Shown here one piece after another: positions 34,652-57,012 of a stretch of DNA of 64,000 nucleotides. Numbering within the stretch: position 1 is the stretch's first letter; the number at the start of each line of letters is the position of its first letter. The notes under the pieces are model-generated. The model did no database searches, was not told the DNA's origin, and was given only the letters and a program-made list of their open reading frames with translations. The translations under genes and the position numbers were made by a program. The stretch spans positions 372,001 to 436,000 of the forward strand of contig JAVQMD010000002.1 in NCBI GenBank assembly GCA_032595675.1. Reading direction: 5' to 3'. The stretch comes from Candidatus Electrothrix rattekaaiensis (lineage in GTDB: Bacteria > Desulfobacterota > Desulfobulbia > Desulfobulbales > Desulfobulbaceae).

Positions 34652-34666
34652 ATGTTCTTTTGTGTA

Positions 34667-36094
34667 ATGATTTTTAATAGTTTTACATTCTTTATATTCT
34701 TCGCCTTTGCTTTTCTCTGCTATATCCCTCTCAAGCACAGATGGCAGAATCGTCTGCTTTTGGCTGCCAGCTGCTTTTTTTACGGATGCTGGGATTACCG
34801 TTTTTTGCTCCTTCTTTTACTGACAGTTGTTGTGGATTATTCGGCAGCAAGGCTGATCTATGCCAGTGAAGATGAGAAGCGAAGAAAGCGCATTCTACTC
34901 GTCAGCGTCTTGGTGAACCTGGGAATTCTCAGCTCTTTTAAATACGCCAATTTTTTCCTGGAGAACGCCCTACTTCTGCTGAACAGTATTGGGTTTCATG
35001 TCGACCCGATTACCTTGCAGATTATCCTGCCTGTAGGAATCTCTTTCTACACATTTCAATCCATGAGCTATACCATTGATGTTTTTCGAGGCAGAGTCGT
35101 TCCTGCGTCCAACATAATGGATTATGCTCTCTATGTTTCTTTTTTCCCCCAGCTAGTTGCTGGACCGATAGAGCGGAGCACCCATCTGCTGCCGCAGATT
35201 CTTTCCCCAAGAAGCATTTCTTTTGAAAAGATTCAGATCGGTTTTTACTACATTGCGTGCGGTTTGTTTCTCAAAATTTTCATGGCCGACAACCTTGCTC
35301 GCTTGGTTAATCCCGTCTTTGCGGCCAACGACCCACAGACAGGATTCTATTATCTTCTGACAGGTTATGCTTTTGCCTTTCAAATCTATGGTGATTTTGC
35401 CGGTTACTCCTGGATAGCTAAAGGCTTAGGGGCGATACTCGGCTTTGACATCATGGATAACTTTAATCTGCCCTATTTTTCCAAAAATCCTCAGGAATTT
35501 TGGCGGAGATGGCATATCAGCTTATCCTCTTGGTTACGAGATTATCTGTACATTCCCTTGGGTGGGAATAGAAACGGGCAAGTCAGAACGGTTCGTAATC
35601 TTTTTTTGACCATGCTGCTCGGTGGCTTATGGCACGGTGCGAAGATGACTTTTGTCGCCTGGGGCTTTTTTCACGCGGTTTTGCTTGCCCTGCATCACCT
35701 TGTCAGTCCAAGCATTAAAGGCGTTGGGCCGGAAGGAAAGAAAAGAAGTCCTTGGTTTGTCAACCTAGTTAAGACGGTTTTCTTTTTTCACCTTATTGTT
35801 ATCAGTTGGTATTTTTTCCGGGCAAACAACTTTGAGCAAGTGCTGGTAATATTCAAAGCTCTGCTGACAGACTTTCATTTTAATTTCGCTGGCAACAAAC
35901 TGTTTATGCAGAAAATATTCTTTTATATTTCACCTGTTCTGCTTATGCAGATTATCCGGTACCATACCGATAACCAGCTCTTTATTTTTAGGCTACCGGT
36001 TCCGGTACGCGCCCTTATCTACAGCGGAGCGTTTTATCTTGTCGTTATATTCGGTGTAACCCATGCTCATGAATTCATTTATTTCCAATTTTAA
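34667..36094 (+). CDS. MBOAT family O-acyltransferase (AlgI/DltB-like)
   Basis: A polytopic inner-membrane protein of 475 residues with about ten membrane segments. It has the MBOAT features of the alginate acetylase AlgI: SFYTFQSMSYTIDVFRG, FFPQLVAGPIER, FAFQIYGDFAGYSWIAKG, and EFWRRWHISLSSWLRDYLYI followed by LGGLWHGAKMTFVAWGFFH with the catalytic histidine. It would move an acyl group across the membrane for modification of a surface polysaccharide. The following SGNH-like gene overlaps by 32 bases and would be the periplasmic partner. The start at 34667 gives MIFNSFTFF; the codon 34652 is less likely. Confidence 0.9.
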   Translation: MIFNSFTFFIFFAFAFLCYIPLKHRWQNRLLLAASCFFYGCWDYRFLLLLLLTVVVDYSAARLIYASEDEKRRKRILLVSVLVNLGILSSFKYANFFLENALLLLNSIGFHVDPITLQIILPVGISFYTFQSMSYTIDVFRGRVVPASNIMDYALYVSFFPQLVAGPIERSTHLLPQILSPRSISFEKIQIGFYYIACGLFLKIFMADNLARLVNPVFAANDPQTGFYYLLTGYAFAFQIYGDFAGYSWIAKGLGAILGFDIMDNFNLPYFSKNPQEFWRRWHISLSSWLRDYLYIPLGGNRNGQVRTVRNLFLTMLLGGLWHGAKMTFVAWGFFHAVLLALHHLVSPSIKGVGPEGKKRSPWFVNLVKTVFFFHLIVISWYFFRANNFEQVLVIFKALLTDFHFNFAGNKLFMQKIFFYISPVLLMQIIRYHTDNQLFIFRLPVPVRALIYSGAFYLVVIFGVTHAHEFIYFQF

Positions 36095-37016
36095 AAGATT
36101 CCCCTATGCCTTCTGTCTTGCCATAATCATTATAGGCTGCTGTGAGTATGTTGTCTCAAGAAAGTTCGATGGAGTTTTTTGGAGTCATGAAGTGGACCAA
36201 CAAGTACAGCAGCTTAAAACAATTCGATATAATGCAGAATATGTTTTGATAGGGGATAGTGTTGGTCTCCAGCTTTCCCAGCAATATTTGAACGATTCGA
36301 GGTTCGCGCTTTTTGCGACGAATCAAGCGATAGAGACAACAGGACAATACTTCCTCATCAGGAGATTTTTAGAAAAGAATAGCCCGCCAAAAGCTGTCAT
36401 ATTCACAGCCCTTCCATTTATTGATAGAGATCTAAACCAAGCGGTTACAGAAAACTTTGTTTTGCGAGTCTTTACGAATTTCAGAGAAATATATGAGGTT
36501 TTTCTTGCGAAATATGATCTGACAATGATTTTTAAAATGCTTACGTATAAGATGTTGTTTTCATATAAGCATAAGTTGCAGCTGCAAAAAAAAATACTTG
36601 GTTATACGAATGCAAATATGTATTCCGGGGTTGATCAAAAGTCTTCCTCATTCAGGTATAATGAGCACTCCTTGTTGAAGATGTACAAAAAAATAAAACA
36701 AAAAAGGACAAACTCTTCCATTGTTCATTTTGAGAAGTTGGCCTCTCTCCTTCGAGAAAAGGGGGTTGATTTTTATTATATCCCGGCACCGATTCAGCAT
36801 AAAAATAAATATGCCAAAGGCGAATATAAAAAAATGTTTTCAGGGTTTATTCCTGAAATGAAAAAGAGACATCATAATGTTTTTTTTGTTGAACATTACG
36901 AGGAATACCCTGAAAATTTATTTAGAGATTTTGTTCATTTTAATGAAGAAGGGTTGGTCCCTGCCTATAAAATTATGAAAGGGAAAGTTGACTCTATTAC
37001 AGATAGATACAGGTGA
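36063..37016 (+). CDS. SGNH-hydrolase-like partner of the MBOAT acyltransferase
   Basis: The 317-residue protein has an N-terminal membrane anchor (FPYAFCLAIIIIGCCEYVV) and then an SGNH-type block 1, YVLIGDSVGLQLS, with the serine at about 66. Near the C-terminus RDFVHFNEEG supplies the Asp-x-x-His pair (about 289-293). Such proteins (DltD, AlgX and AlgJ types) complete acyl transfer in the periplasm with a paired MBOAT. The gene overlaps the MBOAT gene, which supports a shared function. It is more AT-rich than its partner. The acceptor polymer is not shown by the neighbours. Confidence 0.78.
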   Translation: MLMNSFISNFKRFPYAFCLAIIIIGCCEYVVSRKFDGVFWSHEVDQQVQQLKTIRYNAEYVLIGDSVGLQLSQQYLNDSRFALFATNQAIETTGQYFLIRRFLEKNSPPKAVIFTALPFIDRDLNQAVTENFVLRVFTNFREIYEVFLAKYDLTMIFKMLTYKMLFSYKHKLQLQKKILGYTNANMYSGVDQKSSSFRYNEHSLLKMYKKIKQKRTNSSIVHFEKLASLLREKGVDFYYIPAPIQHKNKYAKGEYKKMFSGFIPEMKKRHHNVFFVEHYEEYPENLFRDFVHFNEEGLVPAYKIMKGKVDSITDRYR

Positions 37017-37247
37017 ATTCACTCTCACTCAAAGAGTGAGGCTGGGTTGATTCTTCCGGCTGTGACAGCAAAAACAGCAGTAAATGCACCTTGCAGCACT
37101 GTGGTCATAACAGGAATCAGAGACAGGCTGTTTTGGTCGAAAGCTTGTTTTTCCAGAACATCATAGTGATGTGTGTTTTAAATTGAACGGAACCAGTGCC
37201 CAGAAAGAGCCATGAGATAGGCTTATGCACCGCTTGGTGAGGAGATT
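37017..37247. other. Gap with a possible minus-strand gene remnant
   Basis: Under 300 bases, but the minus strand from 37177 down to 37025 is open for 50 codons without a start and reads protein-like (SLSLIPVMTTVLQGAFTA, VFAVTAGRINPASLFE, stop). It may be the C-terminal scar of a lost gene or chance. A small hairpin CTCACTCAAAGAGTGAG overlaps its end. Confidence 0.3.
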
Positions 37248-39341
37248 ATGGCAGATCCCTTTAGAAAAAAATTAGTCCCTATCAACAAGCTGCAAAACAT
37301 TCGCGGGGTGGACCTTCCTGTGGGCCTGACCTTTGTTCAGCTGCTGGTGACCGGACCGCCGGGCGTAGGAAAAACTTTTTATATTAAAAAAATACACGGA
37401 TGGCCCAATGAGGGCTATATTGATCTGACCCGCAAGGGCTGGTGGAAGGATAAGACCCTTATCTACCGTCCCCGGGAAATACACCTTGGTTTACCCTTTG
37501 AAGACTTTCCCCAGGCTTTAACTGTCTTTGATTCGGAATGGAAAGATGCGGAAAAACCTCTGCGCCTGCAACTGGAACGTATTCAGCTCCCGCCGGAAGG
37601 GTATGATTTTCTCCAGAGCAACTGGCGACAACGCTATATCTTTGAATTTCTCCTCCCCAAGCCGGATGTCATCTTCAAACAACGCCAGGAACGCAAATCA
37701 GAGGGCTATTTTCCAGTGGACGAGGTCATGACCCTTGATATGGTCAAACGACAGGTGGCTGTATACCAGGAAATTGTCCTCTATCTCCACCGGGTGAAGA
37801 TGCAGGTTTATATTCGGGAAGCCCTAGACCAACCGCCCATGTGTATTGTGGAAGAAGGCGAACCTGGCATTCCGGCCTGGGCCACAGCTACCTCCGGCCC
37901 AAGGCCGAGCCTGACCACGCTGGATGGCTGGAAATGGCTGATCCTTCGTCGCGATCCGAGTAATTGGTTGCCACTCACCGACCAATGGCAGCACATAAGA
38001 AAAGAAACTCGGATCTCCTTTGACGGCAATCCCTTTGAGCTGAAACTCGGCAGTAAAATTCTGCGCTTCTACCCTGAAATGCCCTTGGGCGTGCGAAGAA
38101 AATATTTGCGTAGAAATTGGTTAATCACAGATCCGAGTACTTATGGCATGCACCTCTGTCGATTCACCCGTGTTTGTCCGGGTGAAACGGTGATGATAGG
38201 CCGTTCCAATGAAGAATATCAAGCAGCTTTTGCTTTTGATCAAAGCGTTGCAGCTCGCCACATCACCCTCTGTAATATCAAAGGTGATATTATCATCACC
38301 CCCCTGACGGAAAAAAGTCCGGTAGAAATTATCCAGATCACGGATGTTGAACGCGAAGACAGAGTCGCACAACGTCGCTATCAGGCCATGAGAACAATCC
38401 GCCGTATCTACGGCGGCGGGATCAGCTTGCTACCCCCGGACCAAGCCATTGTGCTCTTGAAAGATGTGAACGCACTCCTGGAGCAGGAGGCCTATCGCCC
38501 GGAGAACGACGTGGGGAAGCCCGGCGGACTCATCGAACTGCCCAATAACCGAGCCCCGATCATTGTCGGCGACCTCCATGCCCAGGTGAATAACCTTCTC
38601 AAAATTATTACGGAAAACAGGTTTCTGGCTGCCCTAGAAGCAGATACTGCCTGTCTGATCATTCTTGGCGATGCTGTTCATTCCGAAGTGGATGGCGAAA
38701 TGGAGGATATGGATAGTTCTATTCTGATGATGGATCTGATTCTCCGCCTCAAGCAGCATTTCCCCAAAAACCTTTTTTATCTCAAGGGCAATCATGACAC
38801 GTTCTCAGAGAGTTTGAGCAAAAATACGATTTCCCAGGGGTTGTTAATGCGTCGACGACTTCAGGAATTGCGCGGCGAGGAATATGTAGCGGAGATGGAG
38901 CGTTTTTACAGCCTACTTGCCTATGTTATCTGCTCTGATTCTTTTATCGCTTGTCATGCTGGCCCGAGCAGGAGAAGGGTTACCCGCAATAAACTGATCA
39001 ATTTGCATGATCATCCCAAGATCAGCAACGACCTCATCAACAGCCGCTTGAAACGACCCCATTATCTGGCTGGATACACCAAGAGTGATGTGAAGCATTT
39101 TCGGAAGAATCTAGGCCTAGCCAAACATACCCCCTTTATTGTCGGCCATACCCCGATAGACCCCTCGGGTAGTGTTTGGCGGAATGTCGCTGACATCAAG
39201 GGACATCACATTATTTGCAGCAGCAACCCTGACGGCCCTAGTCTGTTTGAGGAGGTTAACAATGAAATGATTTCGATTAGTTATCCCGCTGAGCCGTTGA
39301 TAGGATTTATCGAAAGAATCGACGAGAACAAGGTGGCATAA
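37248..39341 (+). CDS. P-loop / FHA-like / PPP-type phosphatase three-part protein
   Basis: This 697-residue protein joins an N-terminal P-loop domain (LLVTGPPGVGKTFYIKK, G36-T43), a middle segment like an FHA domain (ETVMIGRS with R319, then VAARHITLCNIKGD), and a C-terminal metallophosphatase of the PPP type. The phosphatase signatures are IIVGDLHAQ (D442, H444), LIILGDAVHSE (D475), YLKGNHDT (N515, H516), IACHAGP and IVGHTP. It resembles in outline the kinase-phosphatase part of bacterial Pnkp RNA repair enzymes, but the ligase is absent and the middle differs. It could phosphorylate and dephosphorylate RNA or protein. It lies upstream of a DUF47-PiT phosphate transport pair. A GAGGAG site precedes the ATG. 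Confidence 0.72.
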   Translation: MADPFRKKLVPINKLQNIRGVDLPVGLTFVQLLVTGPPGVGKTFYIKKIHGWPNEGYIDLTRKGWWKDKTLIYRPREIHLGLPFEDFPQALTVFDSEWKDAEKPLRLQLERIQLPPEGYDFLQSNWRQRYIFEFLLPKPDVIFKQRQERKSEGYFPVDEVMTLDMVKRQVAVYQEIVLYLHRVKMQVYIREALDQPPMCIVEEGEPGIPAWATATSGPRPSLTTLDGWKWLILRRDPSNWLPLTDQWQHIRKETRISFDGNPFELKLGSKILRFYPEMPLGVRRKYLRRNWLITDPSTYGMHLCRFTRVCPGETVMIGRSNEEYQAAFAFDQSVAARHITLCNIKGDIIITPLTEKSPVEIIQITDVEREDRVAQRRYQAMRTIRRIYGGGISLLPPDQAIVLLKDVNALLEQEAYRPENDVGKPGGLIELPNNRAPIIVGDLHAQVNNLLKIITENRFLAALEADTACLIILGDAVHSEVDGEMEDMDSSILMMDLILRLKQHFPKNLFYLKGNHDTFSESLSKNTISQGLLMRRRLQELRGEEYVAEMERFYSLLAYVICSDSFIACHAGPSRRRVTRNKLINLHDHPKISNDLINSRLKRPHYLAGYTKSDVKHFRKNLGLAKHTPFIVGHTPIDPSGSVWRNVADIKGHHIICSSNPDGPSLFEEVNNEMISISYPAEPLIGFIERIDENKVA

Positions 39342-39426: not shown

Positions 39427-40113
39427 ATGACATTGAAATCGACCAGCCCCTTAGCCGGGCTCCTGCACAAATCACCTTTTAAGCCGATTCAGGAACATAT
39501 GCGAACGGTTTTCAGCTGTGTGTCTTTGCTGCAACCTCTGTTTGCTGCCCTGTATGCACAGGATTATGAAGGGGTCAAGAAAATTGCCGACCAGATTGAT
39601 GAGCTGGAAACAGCGGCGGACAAGCAAAAAAGTATTTTTCGTCTCAATATGCCAACAACACTTTTCCTGCCTGTGGACCGCAGAGATCTGCTTAAGCTCC
39701 TGCATGATCAGGATTCCTTGGCTGATAAAACGGAAGAAATTAGCCAAATCCTGATCAGTCGGGACATGGAAGTGCCTGAGGCGATCAAGGATCTCCTCAA
39801 CACCCTGTTGGTCAACACCTTAGGTATCTGCACTGAAGCCAAATCAATCATTGAGGAGCTGGATGAATTGGTCCAAGTCGGCTTCAGGGGCATAGAGCAT
39901 GATAAGGTTATCAAGATGATAGATGCCCTACGAAAAAGCGAGCATGATATCGACCAAACCCTGCATAAAATCAGGCGTACACTGTTCACCATAGAAGACA
40001 GCTTGTCGCCTGTCTCGGCAGTTTTTTGGTATAAAATTATAGATTTGCTCGGTGGCATATCGGATCTTACGGAAAACATGTCGGATCGGTTACTGTTGTT
40101 CCTGTCAAAGTAA
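39427..40113 (+). CDS. DUF47 (TIGR00153, PhoU-like) phosphate transport accessory protein
   Basis: The 228-residue all-helical protein is of the DUF47 group that accompanies PiT transporters. HMRTVFSCVSLLQPLFAALY and VKKIADQIDELETAADKQK near the start, and FTIEDSLSPVSAVFWYKIID near the end, are typical. The E/D-x-x-x-D clusters match the PhoU metal sites. It would control or support Pit in the cytoplasm. The PiT gene follows 101 bases later after a purine-rich repeat. Confidence 0.88.
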   Translation: MTLKSTSPLAGLLHKSPFKPIQEHMRTVFSCVSLLQPLFAALYAQDYEGVKKIADQIDELETAADKQKSIFRLNMPTTLFLPVDRRDLLKLLHDQDSLADKTEEISQILISRDMEVPEAIKDLLNTLLVNTLGICTEAKSIIEELDELVQVGFRGIEHDKVIKMIDALRKSEHDIDQTLHKIRRTLFTIEDSLSPVSAVFWYKIIDLLGGISDLTENMSDRLLLFLSK

Positions 40114-40214: not shown

Positions 40215-41480
40215 ATGGAAGTGATAACGGCCTACGGAACAATTCTGATCATCTTGGCGATGATCTTCGGCCTGTACATGACCTGGGGGGTCGGAGCCAA
40301 TGACCTTGCCAATGCCATGGGAACCTCGGTGGGCGCGGGCGCGATCACGGTGAAACAAGCCATCGTCATCGCTATTATCTTTGAGTTTGCCGGTGCTGTG
40401 CTTGCTGGCGGGCATGTCACCAAGACGATCCGCAAGGGGATTATTGATCCCACCAGCATCGTAGATAAACCGGAAATCCTGGTCTATGGTATGCTGGCGG
40501 CCTTGCTGGCTGCCGCTGTCTGGCTGATGGTCGCTTCAGCAAAGGGTTGGCCGGTTTCCACCACCCATTCCATCGTGGGTGCCCTGGTGGGCTTTGCCTT
40601 GGTTGGCATCGGACCAGAGGCTGTTAACTGGTCAAAGATCTGGAAAATTATTGCCAGCTGGGTCGTTTCTCCGGCTGTGGGCGGAACCATCTCCTTTCTT
40701 CTGGTCATGAGTACCCGCAAGCTTATTTTCGACACGGAGAACCCGCTCAAAAATGCCAAAAAATACGCACCGTTTTACATCTTTTTGGTCGGCTTTATCA
40801 TCTCTCTGGTCACCTTATTCAAGGGCCTGAAGCACCTGGATGTCGAACTGACCGCTGGCCAGAGTCTCGTTGCTGCGGTGTTTATCGGCCTACTCACGGC
40901 CTTATTCGGCTGGTCCTTGGTTCGTAAGGTTGAAGAAGATCCGGCTGCGGATCGGAATTTTCATTTTGCCAGCGTGGAAAAAGTCTTCACCCCGATGATG
41001 CTGTTCACAGCCTGCTCCATGGCCTTTGCCCACGGCTCCAATGATGTGGCCAACGGTATCGGACCGCTGGCAGCAGTGGTCAGTATTGTCTCCTCCGGCG
41101 GCGAGGTCATGCAGAAATCCGAAATGCCTTTTTGGATACTTCTCCTCGGTGGCGGGGGCATCGTGACAGGGCTTGTCACGTTAGGTTATCGGGTTATGCT
41201 CACTGTGGGCACCAAGATCACCGAACTGACGCCTTCCCGTGGATTTTGCGCCGAGCTTGCTGCGGCCTCCACAGTGGTGCTCGCCTCCCGTACCGGTCTG
41301 CCCGTCTCTACCACCCATATCCTGGTTGGGTCCGTGCTCGGTGTTGGCTTGGCCCGAGGCATCGGTGCCCTGGACCTACGAGTGGTGCTCAATATTATCA
41401 TTTCCTGGCTGGTCACCCTGCCAGCAGGAGCTCTTATGGCGATGGTCTTTTTCTTTATCTTAAAGGCAATCTTCAGCTGA
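40215..41480 (+). CDS. pit: PiT family inorganic phosphate transporter
   Basis: A 421-residue inner-membrane carrier that takes up phosphate with a cation. The two family repeats are clear: GANDLANAMGTSVGAG near residue 30 and GSNDVANGIGPLAA near 275, each followed by the STTH motif (WPVSTTHSIVGAL at about 114 and LPVSTTHILVGS at about 363). About ten membrane segments are visible. With the DUF47 gene it forms a low-affinity phosphate route, separate from the high-affinity Pst locus at 57-64 kb. Confidence 0.95.
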   Translation: MEVITAYGTILIILAMIFGLYMTWGVGANDLANAMGTSVGAGAITVKQAIVIAIIFEFAGAVLAGGHVTKTIRKGIIDPTSIVDKPEILVYGMLAALLAAAVWLMVASAKGWPVSTTHSIVGALVGFALVGIGPEAVNWSKIWKIIASWVVSPAVGGTISFLLVMSTRKLIFDTENPLKNAKKYAPFYIFLVGFIISLVTLFKGLKHLDVELTAGQSLVAAVFIGLLTALFGWSLVRKVEEDPAADRNFHFASVEKVFTPMMLFTACSMAFAHGSNDVANGIGPLAAVVSIVSSGGEVMQKSEMPFWILLLGGGGIVTGLVTLGYRVMLTVGTKITELTPSRGFCAELAAASTVVLASRTGLPVSTTHILVGSVLGVGLARGIGALDLRVVLNIIISWLVTLPAGALMAMVFFFILKAIFS

Positions 41481-44956: not shown

Positions 44957-45193
44957 GAGACTTCCTCCCTGCTGAATAAATTTATCTGAAAGAAAAGGCG
45001 GTTGTAGGAATCAATTAATCTGCTTAAACCGTTTTGCTGTGCCTGTCAAGAAATATGATTGAGGTTAACCAGGAGAAATCAAGAGGATATAGAGGTTTTT
45101 CTTTCTGCCACAAGGAAATTTCGTTTAATGATACTTGTTGTCGTATTGCTCGCCAACCCTAGTTGATGACGCAACCTTCCTTGCTGATAGACA

Positions 45194-45592
45194 ACAGACC
45201 CTTGTTGGTCGCAAACAACCTTCCTGCAAGAGCAAACAACCTTCTGTTGGTAGCAAACAACCTTCTGTTGATAACCAAGAACCTTCTGTTGATAACAAAC
45301 AACCTTCTGTTGATAACAAACAACCTTCTGTTGGTAGCAAACAACCTTCTGTTGATAACAAACAACCTTCTGTTGGTAGCAAACAACCTTCTGTTGATAA
45401 CAAACAACCTTCTGTTGGTAGCAAACAACCTTCTGTTGATAACAAACAACCTTCTGTTGGTAGAAAACAACCTTTTGTTAGTAACCAAGAACCTTCTGTT
45501 TATAGCAAACAACCTTTTGTTAAGAGCCGCGAACCTTTTGTCGGAAGCAAACAACCTTCTGTCGGTTATTAATAACCTTTTGCCAGCGAGCA
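45194..45592. repeat. 21-bp tandem repeat array, 19 in-register units
   Basis: Nineteen units of 21 bases fill the stretch exactly (399 bases) with no insertion or deletion, plus one degenerate unit before it. The shared core is ACAACCTTCTGTTG. In the centre two variants alternate, one with GGTAGC and one with GATAAC after the core, which gives a 42-base higher-order period (B B A B A B A B A). Five overlapping frames stay open through it (such as TEGCLLS or RRLFVIN heptads), which is a by-product of the repeat, so I do not call a gene. It fills the gene-free stretch 44957-45631. Confidence 0.95.
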
Positions 45593-51129: not shown

Positions 51130-53240
51130 ATACATTAAAATTCAAATTTGATGTCAGTGCTTACCGTCTATTAGGAAGGGAGCTTATTAGCGATAGAATT
51201 ACGGCACTTTTTGAGCTGGTAAAAAACTGTTATGATGCTAATGCTGAGAATGTACTCGTTAAATTTCAAAATGTAAATCCGCGTTCCCTAAAAAGTATGA
51301 TTCTAATACAGGACGACGGAACGGGAATGAGTCTTGAAGATCTTCGAGACAAATGGATGGTCATTGGAACGAGCAGTAAAAGAAAAAATCGCCTTTCTCC
51401 TCCTCCATATAACAGAAAAGTTGTGGGCAAGAAAGGTGTAGGTCGCTTTGCTGTGGACAAACTTGGAGCTAAATTGCTTTTAAAAACAACAAAGAAAGGC
51501 TCAAAAGATCTCTTATGTCTTGAAACTGATTGGTCATACTATGCTGCTGAGGAATCTCGACAGCTTCGACTTGATTCTTTAGGAAAAAATAAATTTTTTA
51601 CCGATATTGAAAATAAATATTGGACTGAAGTAACAGAGGAAAGTATTTCTGGAACTACTCTTGAAGTATCAATGGTAAATGATTCTTGGACTGAAAATGA
51701 TGTTAGTAGAGCAAATAAAGAGTTATCAAAATTAATATCTCCGAGTAATAAATTGAAATACCCTTTCAATATTGTAATAGATGCTCAGGAATATTCCTCT
51801 TTCAAAAAAAGAGAAGTTACAACAGCAGCAATAGAGTTGGCAACACTTCAAGTTGAATTAGGGTATGATGTAGAAAAAAAACAGCAAGAAATTTTGAGTG
51901 TTGAGAATGGAGATCTTATAAAAATTGAAGTACCTGAGAGGAAATGTGGCTTTATCGGCATGACTCTTTATTATTTTGATCAGTCTTCTAAAAGGAAGTT
52001 CAACAAATCATTTCCTGATGATTCAATTGATGGAATAAAATTATACCGAGATGGTATCATCGCAACTCCATTTGCGGAGTACGCAAGCAATAGAAATGAG
52101 CAGAAAGATTTACTTGGAATAGATAAGCGTCGTTACTCAGGATTTTTTGACAAATTAAGTACCCGAGATTTGTTAGGGTGGATTGAAATATCAGACGAAT
52201 ACAATCCTGATATTATTGATGCAACAAACCGACAAAATTTTGTTGAGAATGACGCATGGAAGGAGCTTAAACTATTTGTTATCGAACAGCTCCGAAAAAT
52301 TGAGGAGTTCCTCAAAAAGAAAAAAAATACTGAAAAGAAAAAGACTAATTCTCAATTTAAAGCTGCAAAAGATGAGATAGGATCTCTCCGTAAACAACTT
52401 AATGCCGTAAAAGAAAAAATTGAATCGCCGGAAGCAAAAGAAACAATTATCAATGTTGAAAAAGAATTAGCTAAAACACAAGCTACTGTTCAGAGGTCGT
52501 TAGCTGATTACCAAAATTTGGAAAAAGAAAAAAAACAGCAGGAAAATTTGTTTTTCAGTTTAGTATCACTTCAAACTTATGCTGGAATGTTGTCGCATAT
52601 CACCAGAACTTCCACAGGAAAAATTAAAAGGGATGCTGAATTTATTTATAAATGGATACCCGACCCGCGATTCACTGAAAGCTATAAAAAAATGGGATTT
52701 AATATTTTCACTGAAATGAATCGCTTGGGAGATGCTGTTGACTTCTTGTTAAAGTATGCAAAAGACGATCAAAAATTTGAGGAAATAAATATTAAAGAAA
52801 CACTTGAATGTATCTTTAATAAAATATATTTTGATGAATTCGAAAAACGTGGGATAAAAGCATCTTTAGATATAAATCGAGACATTATTGTTAATTACAA
52901 CTTAAAATCATTTGAAGAAATTTTTGATAATTTGATCAGTAATTCCTTTAAAGCAGTAGAAAAAAACAGCGGCGAAAAAAACATTAAATGTAGCGTAATA
53001 GTAGAAAAAGATAAATTTATAATACTATTCTCTGACAATGGAGTTGGTATCCCTGAAGAGGATAAATTTAGGATTTTTGACGTTTTTTACACAACAACCT
53101 CAGAACAAGGAGGGGCAGGTTTGGGATTGTTTATTGTTAAATCACGATTGGAAGCCTTAAAAGGTACAATTCAAGTTGTTGAAAATGAATTTAGACCAAC
53201 GGGAGCTACATTCAGGATTGAACTCCCTTTCAAGCGATAA
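51111..53240 (+). CDS. Double-GHKL ATPase / histidine-kinase-like sensor
   Basis: The 709-residue protein has an N-terminal GHKL ATPase domain like that of MORC or Hsp90 proteins (ELVKNCYDANA, QDDGTGMS, GKKGVGRFAVDKLG). A middle part and a coiled coil at about 400-480 follow. A C-terminal histidine-kinase-type half has LSHITRTS (H496 as possible phospho-acceptor), the N box IFDNLISNSFKAVEKN, and the G boxes SDNGVGIP and GAGLGLFIV. It has no membrane segment, so the signal it senses must be inside the cell. It overlaps the methyltransferase gene, and the receiver gene follows after three bases. It is probably the sensor and signal transmitter of the island. Confidence 0.85.
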   Translation: MSEQKINTLKFKFDVSAYRLLGRELISDRITALFELVKNCYDANAENVLVKFQNVNPRSLKSMILIQDDGTGMSLEDLRDKWMVIGTSSKRKNRLSPPPYNRKVVGKKGVGRFAVDKLGAKLLLKTTKKGSKDLLCLETDWSYYAAEESRQLRLDSLGKNKFFTDIENKYWTEVTEESISGTTLEVSMVNDSWTENDVSRANKELSKLISPSNKLKYPFNIVIDAQEYSSFKKREVTTAAIELATLQVELGYDVEKKQQEILSVENGDLIKIEVPERKCGFIGMTLYYFDQSSKRKFNKSFPDDSIDGIKLYRDGIIATPFAEYASNRNEQKDLLGIDKRRYSGFFDKLSTRDLLGWIEISDEYNPDIIDATNRQNFVENDAWKELKLFVIEQLRKIEEFLKKKKNTEKKKTNSQFKAAKDEIGSLRKQLNAVKEKIESPEAKETIINVEKELAKTQATVQRSLADYQNLEKEKKQQENLFFSLVSLQTYAGMLSHITRTSTGKIKRDAEFIYKWIPDPRFTESYKKMGFNIFTEMNRLGDAVDFLLKYAKDDQKFEEINIKETLECIFNKIYFDEFEKRGIKASLDINRDIIVNYNLKSFEEIFDNLISNSFKAVEKNSGEKNIKCSVIVEKDKFIILFSDNGVGIPEEDKFRIFDVFYTTTSEQGGAGLGLFIVKSRLEALKGTIQVVENEFRPTGATFRIELPFKR

Positions 53241-53243
53241 TTT

Positions 53244-53861
53244 ATGGAAAAACTAAACGCCACTATTGTCATAATAGATGATGATAAGTCCTTAAATGAT
53301 CCTGATTCAGGCTTGATGCTTGAACTCAATATGAATTTTGAAACCATCTGTTTTTTTTATAAGCAGAATGACGGGTTGAAATTTATCAAGGAAAATTTAG
53401 ACAAAAGAATCATAGTGTTACTTGACCTTGGGTTTCCATCCCAGACTCCTGACGGGCATGATATTTTAGAGTCAATAAGGAAAATTTCATTTCTTATTCC
53501 GGTGCTTATTTGGAGCGGTGTAGATGAAGATAAAGAAACTTTTGCTGATTTAATAAATAACAAAGCTTATGCGTTCCTAAATAAAAATGCATCAAGTGAT
53601 GAGATAATTACAAAATTACAAAAAGCTTACAATGATATTAATAACGATATAAGTATTGCATTGGAGGAATGGATTACCTCACATTCAGATGAACAAAAGG
53701 AAAAGCCCTACATGGTAACCGCTGAAGGTAAGCGACTTTCACTTAATGAAATATTACATGAAATTCGAGTCCAATCAGATATTGGGATAAATTTTTCAAA
53801 AAATTTATCGAAGTTGACAATTGATCTATTAGCCAGAAATAAGGAATCATTTAATGATTAA
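53244..53861 (+). CDS. Receiver-domain protein (response-regulator-like)
   Basis: The 205-residue chain has an N-terminal receiver domain: acidic pocket IIDDDK (residues 11-15), phospho-acceptor D61 in VLLDLGFP, and a conserved lysine in AFLNKNAS (about 114). The C-terminal 70 residues are helical and show no DNA-binding motif, so the output is probably protein binding rather than transcription. It lies between a kinase-like gene and a caspase-like gene, overlapping the latter by eight bases. Phosphate from H496 of the sensor to D61 is the natural guess. Confidence 0.82.
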   Translation: MEKLNATIVIIDDDKSLNDPDSGLMLELNMNFETICFFYKQNDGLKFIKENLDKRIIVLLDLGFPSQTPDGHDILESIRKISFLIPVLIWSGVDEDKETFADLINNKAYAFLNKNASSDEIITKLQKAYNDINNDISIALEEWITSHSDEQKEKPYMVTAEGKRLSLNEILHEIRVQSDIGINFSKNLSKLTIDLLARNKESFND

Positions 53862-54531
53862 CACATTACTTGTGTGCGATAACAATGATAATGAATTAGG
53901 TGGATTCTTTAAAAAATGCCATGATAAAATCAAAATTATACTCGATTCATCAGAATGCCAATTTAATACTATTCCAATAACAGGAAATTCGTCATTTGAG
54001 ATGTTAGTTTCGATAAACGCAGATGCCATAAATTCTGAACCTTTTCTATTTATGTCCTATTCGCATGGTTCAGAAAATGAACTACTTCAAAATGGCGTAA
54101 CTCCTTTTTTATCAACAGTCAACGGAATTGATTGTCTTAAAAATTCATTTGCTTATTGCTATGCATGTAAAGCAGGGGGTGTTTTAGGGAAAGAGTTATG
54201 CAAAAAAGGAGCATTATGCTTCATAGGATATAGTCAAAACATCACAATTCAATTCTACTTTGGTGCAGAAGATGCCTTAATCGAATGTGCTACTTGTGGA
54301 ATTAAAGTTTTTGTTGATGGAAAGACAACAGGCCAGACACTTAAGACAATAAAAGAAAAATATACAAAATGTGTGGATGAATTTTATTTAAAAGATATGT
54401 TCACAGCAAGTTTATTTATGCAGAATAGAGATGCATTAGTTTTACATGGTGATTCAGAATTAATGATTAGTGATATAGATTCTCAAAAGATTCATTACGA
54501 CAACTCTCATAATAAAGAAAGACTCCGATGA
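53854..54531 (+). CDS. Caspase-like (CHAT/C14-type) cysteine protease, putative effector
   Basis: The 225-residue protein has a caspase-fold dyad pattern: FLFMSYSHGSENEL with H71 and FAYCYACKAGGVLG with C105, followed by GALCFIGYSQN, as in CHAT and related clan CD proteases. It has no signal peptide. The spacing of H and C is about 34 residues, short but within the range of such proteins. It would be the toxic or processing output of the upstream sensor and receiver. Its stop overlaps the ATG of the rhodanese gene (ATGA). The nearest family is not recognised by name. Rich in cysteine for a bacterial cytoplasmic protein. Confidence 0.6.
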   Translation: MINTLLVCDNNDNELGGFFKKCHDKIKIILDSSECQFNTIPITGNSSFEMLVSINADAINSEPFLFMSYSHGSENELLQNGVTPFLSTVNGIDCLKNSFAYCYACKAGGVLGKELCKKGALCFIGYSQNITIQFYFGAEDALIECATCGIKVFVDGKTTGQTLKTIKEKYTKCVDEFYLKDMFTASLFMQNRDALVLHGDSELMISDIDSQKIHYDNSHNKERLR

Positions 54532-55061
54532 AAAAGAAAAGAACTACCTTATTCCTTGCTGCCCTGGCTCTTTCACTCACCCTGCCTGTCAGCTCTTTTG
54601 CCGCTGCGGATCTCAAGGCCGGTGAAGCAGCGTTCTACCACGAACTCAGAGCGGCAATCCCCAAAGACAAAATCAAAACCGCAGTTGATCTGTACGCAAA
54701 ATGGCAGGAAATTCAAAGCGGGAAGAGCAAGGCGGTTATTATTGATGTCAGGACCGAGGCTGAATTCGATGTCGGACATATTTTGAACTCCAGTAATGTG
54801 CACTCCGGCCACGCCTACGGATTATATAAGAAAATAGCAGACCCTAAGGCTGAGATCTGGGTCACCTGTCGAACCAAACATCGCGCTTCTTATTTTGCTG
54901 GTATGCTTTATAAATATGGCTATACAAATGTGTATCTTGCTGAGGGCGGGATCAAGACCTGGGCGGAAAAAGGCTATCCTTTGGTCAATAAATACCTAGG
55001 AACTATCAAGGTTACAGGATACCAGAAGGAACTAACAGAAGACTATCTCTACCGGGAATAG
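54528..55061 (+). CDS. Periplasmic rhodanese-domain protein
   Basis: The 177-residue product has a signal peptide (LFLAALALSLTLPVSSFAAA, cleavage near residue 26) and a single rhodanese domain with VIIDVRTEAEFDVGHI, the active-site loop WVTCRTKHRA (cysteine at about 113) and LAEGGIKTWAEKGYPL. It would bind or move sulfane sulfur in the periplasm, which fits a sulfur-metabolising organism. The ATG overlaps the stop of the caspase-like gene, but composition returns to the level of the core genome here, so the link is probably an insertion junction. A terminator follows. Confidence 0.9.
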   Translation: MKKKRTTLFLAALALSLTLPVSSFAAADLKAGEAAFYHELRAAIPKDKIKTAVDLYAKWQEIQSGKSKAVIIDVRTEAEFDVGHILNSSNVHSGHAYGLYKKIADPKAEIWVTCRTKHRASYFAGMLYKYGYTNVYLAEGGIKTWAEKGYPLVNKYLGTIKVTGYQKELTEDYLYRE

Positions 55062-55064
55062 AAT

Positions 55065-55094
55065 AAAAAACCGAGCCCGGAGGGCCCGGTTTTA
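55065..55094 (+). terminator. Terminator of the rhodanese gene
   Basis: AACCGAGCCC, GGA, GGGCCCGGTT (55069-55091) form a ten-pair stem with one mismatch, preceded by an A run and followed by TTTA. It begins a few bases after the stop of the gene. Confidence 0.8.
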
Positions 55095-55097
55095 CGA

Positions 55098-55730
55098 TAA
55101 CCCCTAAAAGGGGATAAAATGCTTTTGCCCCCAGAGGGGGCAAAAGTGAGCTGCCCTCTTTATTAAACTGACATTTGGGAAGAGTTAATGGATTGTCTTT
55201 TCAGAATCCTTTTCTTTCTCTTCCTGGTACTTAACATACTTACGAATCATCTCTGTATCAAGACCGACGGTATCAACACAGTAACCGCGAGCCCACAAGT
55301 GATTACCCCAAAAAGGCCTCTGCTTCAATTTACGGAACTTATTTAAAACTCGAATTGCTGTCCGACCTTTAACAGTTCCCATATAAGTTGATACTGAAAC
55401 TTTGGGCGGTATCATCACAAGATGATGAACATGGTCAACCTGTACATTCAACTCTATCAACTCACATTTCTGAGCTGAAGTGAATGTTTTTATGCAATCT
55501 TCAACTTCCTTTTTTATACTGCCTTTCAAAACTCTGAAACGGTATTTGGGACAAAATACTATATGATATTGGCAATGCCATACCGTTTGTGATAATTTAC
55601 GAAATCTACTCATTTGTTACTCCTTGGTTGTAGTTGTTGTCGAGGCAACTCAACCTTGGGGTAACAAATCACTGCTCAGATGGCAAAGCCATTGAGCACT
55701 GACCTTGCCCTGAGGGCAAGGTTTTCACTG
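55098..55730. mobile_element. IS200-type insertion sequence
   Basis: A single tnpA gene lies between strong subterminal hairpins. On the left are CCCCTAAAAGGGG (55101-55113) and CTTTTGCCCCC-AGA-GGGGGCAAAAG (55122-55146). On the right is ACCTTGCCC-TGA-GGGCAAGGT (55702-55722), with a smaller one at 55676-55697. There are no terminal inverted repeats or target duplications, as expected for the Y1 family. No tnpB is present. The exact ends are not fixed by the sequence alone. Confidence 0.8.
55185..55613 (-). CDS. tnpA: IS200-like Y1 transposase
   Basis: The 142-residue HUH transposase starts MSRFRKLSQTVWHCQYHIVF and has CPKYR. The HUH metal site is in VQVDHVHHLVMIPP (H61, H63), and the catalytic tyrosine lies in MIRKYVKYQ (Y126). 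FWGNHLWARGYCVDTVG is the conserved late block. It acts on single-stranded DNA at hairpins and is complete, so the element may be active. The start ATG follows a GGAG-type site on the minus strand. Confidence 0.95.
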   Translation of the reverse strand: MSRFRKLSQTVWHCQYHIVFCPKYRFRVLKGSIKKEVEDCIKTFTSAQKCELIELNVQVDHVHHLVMIPPKVSVSTYMGTVKGRTAIRVLNKFRKLKQRPFWGNHLWARGYCVDTVGLDTEMIRKYVKYQEEKEKDSEKTIH

Positions 55731-55742
55731 CTAGAATAAAAA

Positions 55743-55776
55743 ACAAAAAAAGGGACGCTCCTGAAGAACGTCCCTT
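55743..55776 (-). terminator. Terminator of the porin gene
   Basis: On the minus strand AAGGGACG, an 11-base loop and CGTCCCTT form an eight-pair stem followed by a run of seven T. It ends the transcription of the porin and perhaps of the whole phosphate locus. Confidence 0.85.
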
Positions 55777-55838
55777 GCAAAACAGTTATCTCCGTACCCG
55801 CCGTTGAAACAGCGTCTCGGAGGGACTGCCCAAAATAG

Positions 55839-55858
55839 CCCGGTCTTGCAAGACCGGG
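55839..55858. repeat. Perfect 20-base palindrome after the porin stop
   Basis: CCCGGTCTTGCAAGACCGGG reads the same on both strands. It lies 11 bases after the porin stop without a T run, so it may be an mRNA 3' hairpin or a palindromic repeat similar in kind to those at 58598 and 63828. Confidence 0.7.
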
Positions 55859-55869
55859 TGTGTTCTAAC

Positions 55870-57012
55870 TTAGAATTTAATCCGGGCACCGGCCAGAGCC
55901 AACGAGATGGGTTCGTAATCAGCACTGGTATTATCTTCCAGTTCAAAATTACGGTAGGCTGCAAAAATCTCAGTGTTGTACTCAGACAGCTTCTGAACAA
56001 GCTGAACACCATAGGCCGTGCCTTCTTCTTCAGTGTTCTGGGTTTCGATATTGGAGTACACCCCATAATCAAAAGAACAGGCTGTGGAACCGACAGAAAA
56101 GATCTTGGTCTTATAACCGATCTTACCGTACATAAAGGTCGGATCATCACCATTTACAGGCATATTATCCAAGTCTCGGGAACCGCCTGCCACAGTGAAG
56201 TTAAGTCCAAAGCCGAACAGGACAGAAGCAGAACCGCTGATCAGGGTGTAGTCCACCCCTTCACCTGGTTCAGAGTAGGCGACAACTGCTTTCAGTTGCG
56301 TCTCATCAGCAAATTTACCGGAATATGTGAGAGCGACATCAGCACGCTCCTTTTCACCTGCGGATACACCGAGAGATAAACCTCCAAGGGTTGGCGTGTC
56401 GTAGCGCACCCTATTCCGTCTGCTCAATCCATCCATCTGGTCAAAAACATCACCGACTGTAATGCTCTTAGCCTCTTCACCCTCAGCCACTACTACAGGA
56501 GTCGTATTATAGAAGACAAAGCCACCACCGGCATCGGCTGCACCGGAGTTACCAGCAACACCGGTGCCGGACAAGTCAACTTCCGAGCTTCCATTTGAGA
56601 CCATATCCCCCCGCCCTACGGACAATTTACCGAGCTTTTCAGAATCAAAATAAACGTCCATTTTTCGTTCTTTAAGCTCGCTGGAGATGCTCTCTTCCTG
56701 CATTGATACTTTATGTGAAGGGTTGGATTGCCATTCCACTTCAACAGTTCCACCTATTGTCAGGGAGTCATATGCCGACACTTCTCCATTGATGCCGAAT
56801 CTGCTTTCAGAATTGGTATTATCAACATGAAAAACCTTGCTTTCGTTGCCGTCGTCAACAGCCATAACTGCCCGGTTGATATGACCATACAGCTTTAGCC
56901 CCACCTTATCGTTACCTGAATTCACCTCAAGAGCTGAGGCTGACACAGCTCCGCCGAGCAGCATTGCTCCGACCGTCAGGGTGACTGCACCGGTTGTATA
57001 CACTTTCTTCAT
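55870..57012 (-). CDS. Outer membrane porin
   Basis: The 380-residue protein has a signal peptide (GAVTLTVGAMLLGGAVSASA, cleavage near residue 28) and begins the mature part with LKLYGHINRAVMAVDDG, as in general Gram-negative porins. Amphipathic strands run to a C-terminal phenylalanine (ALAGARIKF). SRFGINGEVSAYDSLTIGG is the typical second strand block. It follows the pst genes on the same strand, so it may be a phosphate-induced porin, in the role of PhoE. Terminators lie downstream. Confidence 0.88.
   Translation of the reverse strand: MKKVYTTGAVTLTVGAMLLGGAVSASALEVNSGNDKVGLKLYGHINRAVMAVDDGNESKVFHVDNTNSESRFGINGEVSAYDSLTIGGTVEVEWQSNPSHKVSMQEESISSELKERKMDVYFDSEKLGKLSVGRGDMVSNGSSEVDLSGTGVAGNSGAADAGGGFVFYNTTPVVVAEGEEAKSITVGDVFDQMDGLSRRNRVRYDTPTLGGLSLGVSAGEKERADVALTYSGKFADETQLKAVVAYSEPGEGVDYTLISGSASVLFGFGLNFTVAGGSRDLDNMPVNGDDPTFMYGKIGYKTKIFSVGSTACSFDYGVYSNIETQNTEEEGTAYGVQLVQKLSEYNTEIFAAYRNFELEDNTSADYEPISLALAGARIKF

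Follow-up and report, generated by a model that had tools for sequence, protein, structure and literature searches.

A family of putative kinase-phosphatase proteins with an FHA-like middle domain encoded beside DUF47-PiT phosphate transport genes in Candidatus Electrothrix and its relatives

The stretch of the Candidatus Electrothrix rattekaaiensis genome that we analyzed (64,000 nucleotides [nt]; here, the window) encodes a 697-amino-acid (aa) protein in which a P-loop kinase-type domain, an FHA-like domain, and a PPP-family phosphatase domain follow one another in a single chain, upstream of genes for a DUF47 protein and a PiT-type phosphate transporter. What is new is a bifunctional kinase-phosphatase of a known kind, with putative activities, in a new setting beside phosphate transport. 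We consider the chances evenly balanced that it is a cytosolic bifunctional enzyme controlling phosphate import via the neighboring PiT and DUF47 regulator. The protein family is well defined, and neither Pfam nor NCBIfam holds a dedicated model for it; a literature search, covering mostly sources outside subscription journals, returned no paper describing the protein.

The open reading frame with its stop codon spans exactly positions 37248 to 39341 on the forward strand of the window, with a ribosome-binding site (AGGAG; 37240 to 37244, +) just 5' of the ATG, and the gene is present in a single copy in this genome. Best-segment identity to the protein reaches 93% in Ca. Electrothrix aarhusensis, 91% in Ca. 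Electrothrix marina, and 81% in Ca. Electrothrix gigas. In a 57-row alignment, lengths range from 691 to 710 aa, the 56 other proteins are 47 to 90% identical to that of the window, and 96 columns are invariant. With its full-length homologs, this is a real gene conserved over its whole length. Two copies depart from the pattern: the gene of one Ca. Electrothrix aarhusensis locus (L003, 6001 to 8084) lies in two overlapping frames split near residue 415, by error or by a true break, and that of another genome (G033) has stops within its first third.

The N-terminal domain (residues 30 to 215; 37335 to 37892, +) carries the Walker A motif GPPGVGKT (residues 36 to 43; 37353 to 37376, +), of which GPPGxGK is invariant in all 57 sequences, with A, S, or V at residue 40 and either T (34 sequences) or S (23 sequences) after the lysine. 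Equally invariant are D59, the R74-P-R-E77 stretch, D158, and two LID-type arginines, R146 and R149 (37683 to 37694, +). Mean AlphaFold pLDDT was 84.9 for the whole chain and 79.7 for residues 1 to 372, and we regard both models as good enough for comparing folds. Structural alignment of residues 30 to 215 with VIA-align recovered an Odinarchaeote adenylate kinase (Z 8.1, rmsd 4.0, 139 residues), Bacillus YorR (Z 8.0), and the Clostridium thermocellum polynucleotide kinase (4gp7; Z 7.8, rmsd 3.8, 132 residues), and the further matches listed include deoxynucleoside kinases and PPK2 (Z 6.3 to 6.7, 156 to 170 residues aligned). The roughly 18 kinase-type matches listed score moderately and are tied at Z 6 to 8 with none standing out as a family; judged from the predicted fold, the kinase class is clear and the kinase family is not.

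Profile comparison points the same way. The AAA_33 kinase profile aligned with the P-loop domain at 79% in hhalign over 128 columns, setting D59 against the SDxxR aspartate and placing R146 and R149 in the LID region. The AAA+ profile scored 88%, but over just 30 columns at Walker A, and AAA_33, a true kinase family, matched AAA+ likewise over 31 columns (profiles were built from 20 of 30 loci for AAA_33, 10 of 15 for PPK2, and 20 of 30 for AAA). A plain AAA+ reading was set aside as less probable, the profile match being the Walker A stretch alone; the listed fold matches are kinases, which leaves room for AAA+. The natural reading is that the domain is a putative kinase. A PPK2 origin is kept only within a metabolic alternative given below: it had been suggested by a VFDKEW stretch, which we take to resemble the FDRSWY of PPK2, and by the VIA-align rows, and the PPK2 profile scored 0.3% in hhalign, a weak test given that PPK2 scored 0.6% against AAA_33 itself.

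The middle domain (residues 245 to 366; 37980 to 38345, +) is all-beta in the AlphaFold model; P-loop proteins took up the structural matches listed, and the absence of FHA chains among these does not speak against an FHA fold. A profile of 30 FHA domains from the phylum, part of the FHA matches listed, aligned with residues 313 to 360 at 86% in hhalign (E 4.8e-6, 46 columns), spanning GETVxIGR...VAxRH...GD, whereas eight other valid profiles scored at most 0.7% and FHA controls with reversed or 20 column-shuffled alignments at most 1.65%. The Pfam FHA model (PF00498) matched weakly, in 4 of 57 members, with a best E value of 0.007. FHA domains bind phosphothreonine (pThr) through residues of the G-R, S-x-x-H, and N-G motifs. 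Among the 57 sequences the glycine is kept in all, the arginine in 49, and the histidine in 55, while the pThr-contacting serine position, three before the histidine, holds alanine in 37, glycine in 10, serine in 9, and aspartate in 1, and the NG motif expected after the histidine is absent. Because the serine is mostly replaced by alanine or glycine and the NG motif is missing, pThr binding is doubtful; judged on its sequence, the domain is FHA-like and is unlikely to recognize pThr in the standard way. Thus, of the sequence-only reading that preceded this work, the FHA likeness stands and the suggestion of phosphothreonine recognition is weakened. We note that no domain in the whole genome of the window reaches the Pfam FHA model, so the FHA-like domain described here may be the only one that this genome encodes.

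The C-terminal domain (residues 380 to 687; 38385 to 39308, +) bears the motifs GDLH, GDAVHSE, GNHD, CHAGP, and GHTP, and all 57 members match Metallophos (PF00149). Its model superposes on human PP5 (Z 27.5, rmsd 3.1, 266 residues, 18% identity) and also fits the PP1/PP2A/calcineurin group. D442, H444, D475, N515, H516, H570, and H634 are invariant in all 57 sequences, and we take them, by motif correspondence, to be the PPP metal and acid residues; the ligand set of the PPP superfamily (GDxH, GD, GNH, H, H) is present in every member. PPP Ser/Thr protein phosphatases carry GDxxDRG and GNHE, and the arginine of DRG binds substrate. Throughout the family, a GDAVHSE-type motif, with H478 in all 57 sequences, replaces GDxxDRG, and GNHD replaces GNHE. 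From its motifs and modeled fold, the domain is predicted to be an intact, active member of the PPP enzymes whose substrate pocket is altered; since the DRG arginine is missing, the substrate may be something other than a phosphoprotein. The three-domain composition put forward from the sequence alone is thus supported: by profile and modeled fold for a PPP phosphatase domain with its ligands intact, by profile for an FHA-like middle, and by modeled fold for a P-loop domain that resembles P-loop kinases and is probably not plain AAA.

Downstream on the same strand lie the DUF47 gene (PhoU_div, TIGR00153, a PitR-like accessory regulator; 39427 to 40113, +; PF01865, E 1.2e-46), after a gap of 85 nt in which zero terminator-like sites were found, and the PiT gene (PHO4; 40215 to 41480, +; PF01384, E 6.7e-122). 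Across 43 loci from 42 genomes (L002 and L078 belong to one genome), 40 have PiT after the gene in the same orientation and 39 have DUF47 in between, the difference being a genome (G197; L060, 7347 to 11009) with PiT directly after the gene and DUF47 not found. The DUF47-PiT pair is missing beside the gene in three loci, L050 (G182), L054 (G132), and L074 (G237); in G182, PiT is located on another contig. Despite the missing neighbors, the proteins of these three genomes keep all 96 invariant residues. In G237, three short, unrelated ORFs (231, 196, and 194 aa) occupy the place of the pair (L074, 11236 to 13232) and may represent a mobile insertion.

Upstream genes are variable in the family of the window, with MBOAT and others, and in a second family, f12, they comprise MutL-TrmFO on the opposite strand (genus g25) or a glutamate synthase operon (other f12 genera). 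Because the upstream genes differ between clades, only the trio is constant. The sequence-only reading had left it undecided whether the place upstream of DUF47-PiT was functional or fortuitous; as it is conserved across two families and three unrelated upstream contexts, the placement is not chance. Other features of the window were noted in passing. At 34652 to 37016 the MBOAT gene (DltB-like, below the NCBIfam cutoff) overlaps a gene for a 317-aa protein without a Pfam match, a pair that resembles acyl-transfer pairs and is not conserved elsewhere beside the 697-aa protein gene. A tandem array at 45172 to 45562, which can be read as 18.5 copies of a 21-base unit or 8.6 copies of a 42-base unit, is open in several reading frames of both strands, and positions 52001 to 56000, which may be a foreign insert, have a GC content of 36.5% against 44 to 51% around them.

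Across the class, PiT matches were sorted into subtypes by alignment length. Full-length PiT of the window's subtype occurs in 71 genomes, of which 69 also carry the 697-aa protein. Two do not: in G010 the contig breaks off within DUF47, and G131, from another family, encodes DUF47 and PiT of this subtype but not the 697-aa protein, with an unrelated gene upstream. In 67 of 71 located gene-PiT pairs the two genes share one contig and strand, with PiT 394 to 1,435 nt downstream (median, 998). In the other direction, 15 of the 84 genomes with the gene have no full-length PiT of the window's subtype: PiT is cut by a contig end in G045 and G221, G132 (99% complete) and G237 (95%) seem to be without it, and others are fragments or low-completeness genomes. 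Six gene-less genomes examined encode DUF47 and PiT proteins 29 to 32% and 46 to 49% identical, respectively, to those of the window. A strict partnership is contradicted by G131, with the pair but not the gene, and by the genomes with the gene but no PiT, and co-inheritance with DUF47-PiT can follow from closeness alone.

Two candidate phosphosites were considered and rejected. T131 of DUF47 is kept in 40 of 40 sequences here and is V in G131, yet 9 of 77 conserved columns change in G131; S253 of PiT is kept in 41 of 43 and is A in G131, yet 5 of 252 conserved columns change there, and the loci L057 and L058 carry the 697-aa protein, yet have A at PiT position 253. A PiT 58.7% identical to that of the window was also seen in NZ_AP026896.1 (L236; Aeromonas caviae KAM479), which is entered as a plasmid but, at 4.9 Mb, looks like a chromosome.

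The protein has a narrow distribution. It was matched in 38 of 195 relatives searched and, in the class set, in 84 of 257 genomes, some of these matches being fragments (for example, in G193, G207, G212, and G233), and a phylum-wide search with the full profile matched 2 of 395 genomes, both in the window's order. Matches are confined to two families of that order, that of the window (f1) and f12, and the protein was found in none of the genomes sampled outside it. Zero relatives turned up among the phages, plasmids, and viral contigs searched, PADLOC gave a weak Walker A match only, and PHROGs gave weak phosphatase matches. The idea of a wider PPP subfamily in the phylum was dropped: a PPP-only profile, made from 28 of the 57 rows, gave 3 matches in 247 genomes, one of them the window and the other two weak (E 1.3e-8 and 8.3e-7). 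Within the genus of the window, one genome that is 97% complete (G001) has neither the gene nor PiT of the window's subtype. One study describes cable bacteria as storing polyphosphate, with PiT present in some species and not in others and with the cable bacterium YB6 lacking it (PMC12093952).

We compared a phylogeny of the 697-aa protein with one of the joined DUF47 and PiT sequences, each covering the 36 genomes for which all three genes were available, and the two agree in their main groups. Both place the cable-bacterial group beside the f12 genus g25, and both place two genomes of the window's family, G036 (genus g2) and G058 (genus g8), inside the f12 genus g62 (support, 1.0 and 0.992). 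The sole PiT found in G036 and G058 is of the window's subtype, and the other members of these genera with PiT (21 genomes of g8 and three of g2) have other PiT types. The simplest account suggested by these trees is that the whole cassette was transferred and replaced the resident PiT.

We hypothesize that, if the protein controls phosphate import, the N-terminal kinase-type domain would phosphorylate a target and the C-terminal PPP domain would remove the phosphate from that same target, with the FHA-like middle holding both ends or docking a partner. The balance between kinase and phosphatase would report ATP or phosphate status and set PiT through DUF47. The target could be DUF47, PiT, or a small signal that they read, and both ends would be active, both on the same target. 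A reversible phosphorylation switch for import is suggested because both sites are intact and because the gene is tied to an importer and its regulator. A more specific version, which we consider less probable than not, is a make-and-erase signal enzyme in which the kinase would write and the PPP domain erase a phosphosite or messenger gating PiT via DUF47, the three genes forming a cassette that is inherited as a unit, passes between families, and replaces ordinary PiT; if true, the enzyme would be a bacterial functional counterpart of the eukaryotic PPIP5K.

Other accounts of the same protein give its ends different work. Some PPP-superfamily enzymes, including ApaH and Ppn2, act as polyphosphatases or dinucleoside-polyphosphate hydrolases, and the protein might similarly belong to phosphate metabolism and not to regulation, with the kinase storing phosphate as a nucleotide or other product and the PPP domain releasing it. 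The missing DRG arginine would fit such a nonprotein substrate, nucleotide kinases (up to Z 8.1) and PPK2 are among the fold matches listed for the N-terminal domain, and cable bacteria contain polyphosphate (PMC12093952). The PPK2 profile link is only 0.3%, in the weak test noted above, and it is not obvious what the FHA-like domain would do in an enzyme of this sort. We find this account somewhat improbable. It is unlikely, in our estimation, that the phosphatase alone is catalytic, with the P-loop domain a nucleotide sensor gating it and the target phosphorylated by another kinase. The genome does encode at least one Ser/Thr protein kinase, and P-loop domains often serve as switches, but invariance extends beyond Walker A to D59 and the LID arginines, which would be needless for a pure sensor.

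Least probable to us is that the protein heals nucleic acid ends in the manner of Pnkp and that its place beside PiT is frozen and functionally meaningless. A kinase and a PPP phosphatase do share one chain, the best fold match listed outside the nucleotide kinases is the C. thermocellum polynucleotide kinase, and the AAA_33 alignment sets D59 at the SDxxR aspartate; yet the ligase domain is absent, the conserved neighborhood holds no ligase or methyltransferase gene, and co-inheritance with DUF47-PiT is tight.

The reading as a regulator of import bears on how phosphate is sensed. A study of Staphylococcus aureus describes the DUF47-type PitR as a regulator of phosphate homeostasis that is tied to PitA and acts with its transporter, and leaves the signal unknown (PMC13170248). 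From the protein family and the gene pair, we infer that the DUF47 protein here equals PitR. A dedicated kinase-phosphatase within the unit would offer a concrete, testable signal through which PiT and its DUF47 regulators might sense phosphate. The question touches cable bacteria in particular, as polyphosphate storers with species-dependent PiT.

Bacterial Pnkp combines an N-terminal P-loop kinase and a PPP-family phosphatase in one chain, and the sequence-only reading had likened the protein to that part of Pnkp without the ligase. The shared P-loop kinase-type and PPP domains and the lack of a ligase agree with this likeness (no ligase or adenylyltransferase domain is among the Pfam matches of the 57 members, and the three domains account for all 697 residues), whereas the order kinase-FHA-phosphatase, with an FHA-like domain in between, the absence of a Hen1-like neighbor, and GDAVHSE, without the arginine, in place of GDxxDRG do not. 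With the ligase absent and the domain order different, the protein is not a Pnkp. Animal PNKP also unites FHA, phosphatase, and kinase in one chain, a likeness in the list of functions only, in that its phosphatase is HAD and its FHA domain comes first, where here the phosphatase is PPP and the FHA-like domain lies in the middle. PP5, PP1, and calcineurin share the fold over about 265 residues (Z 26 to 27.5, 15 to 19% identity) and the same metal ligands, and differ in that all 57 family members lack DRG and have GNHD for GNHE. PFK-2/FBPase-2 and PPIP5K, the latter acting in phosphate homeostasis, likewise unite in a single polypeptide a kinase that makes a signal and a phosphatase that erases it, with a phosphatase of the histidine phosphatase fold where here it is PPP. 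The last comparison is with PitR, which forms a genetic unit with PitA and is proposed to control phosphate homeostasis (PMC13170248); the 697-aa protein is neither DUF47 nor PhoU and is an extra third member of such a unit.
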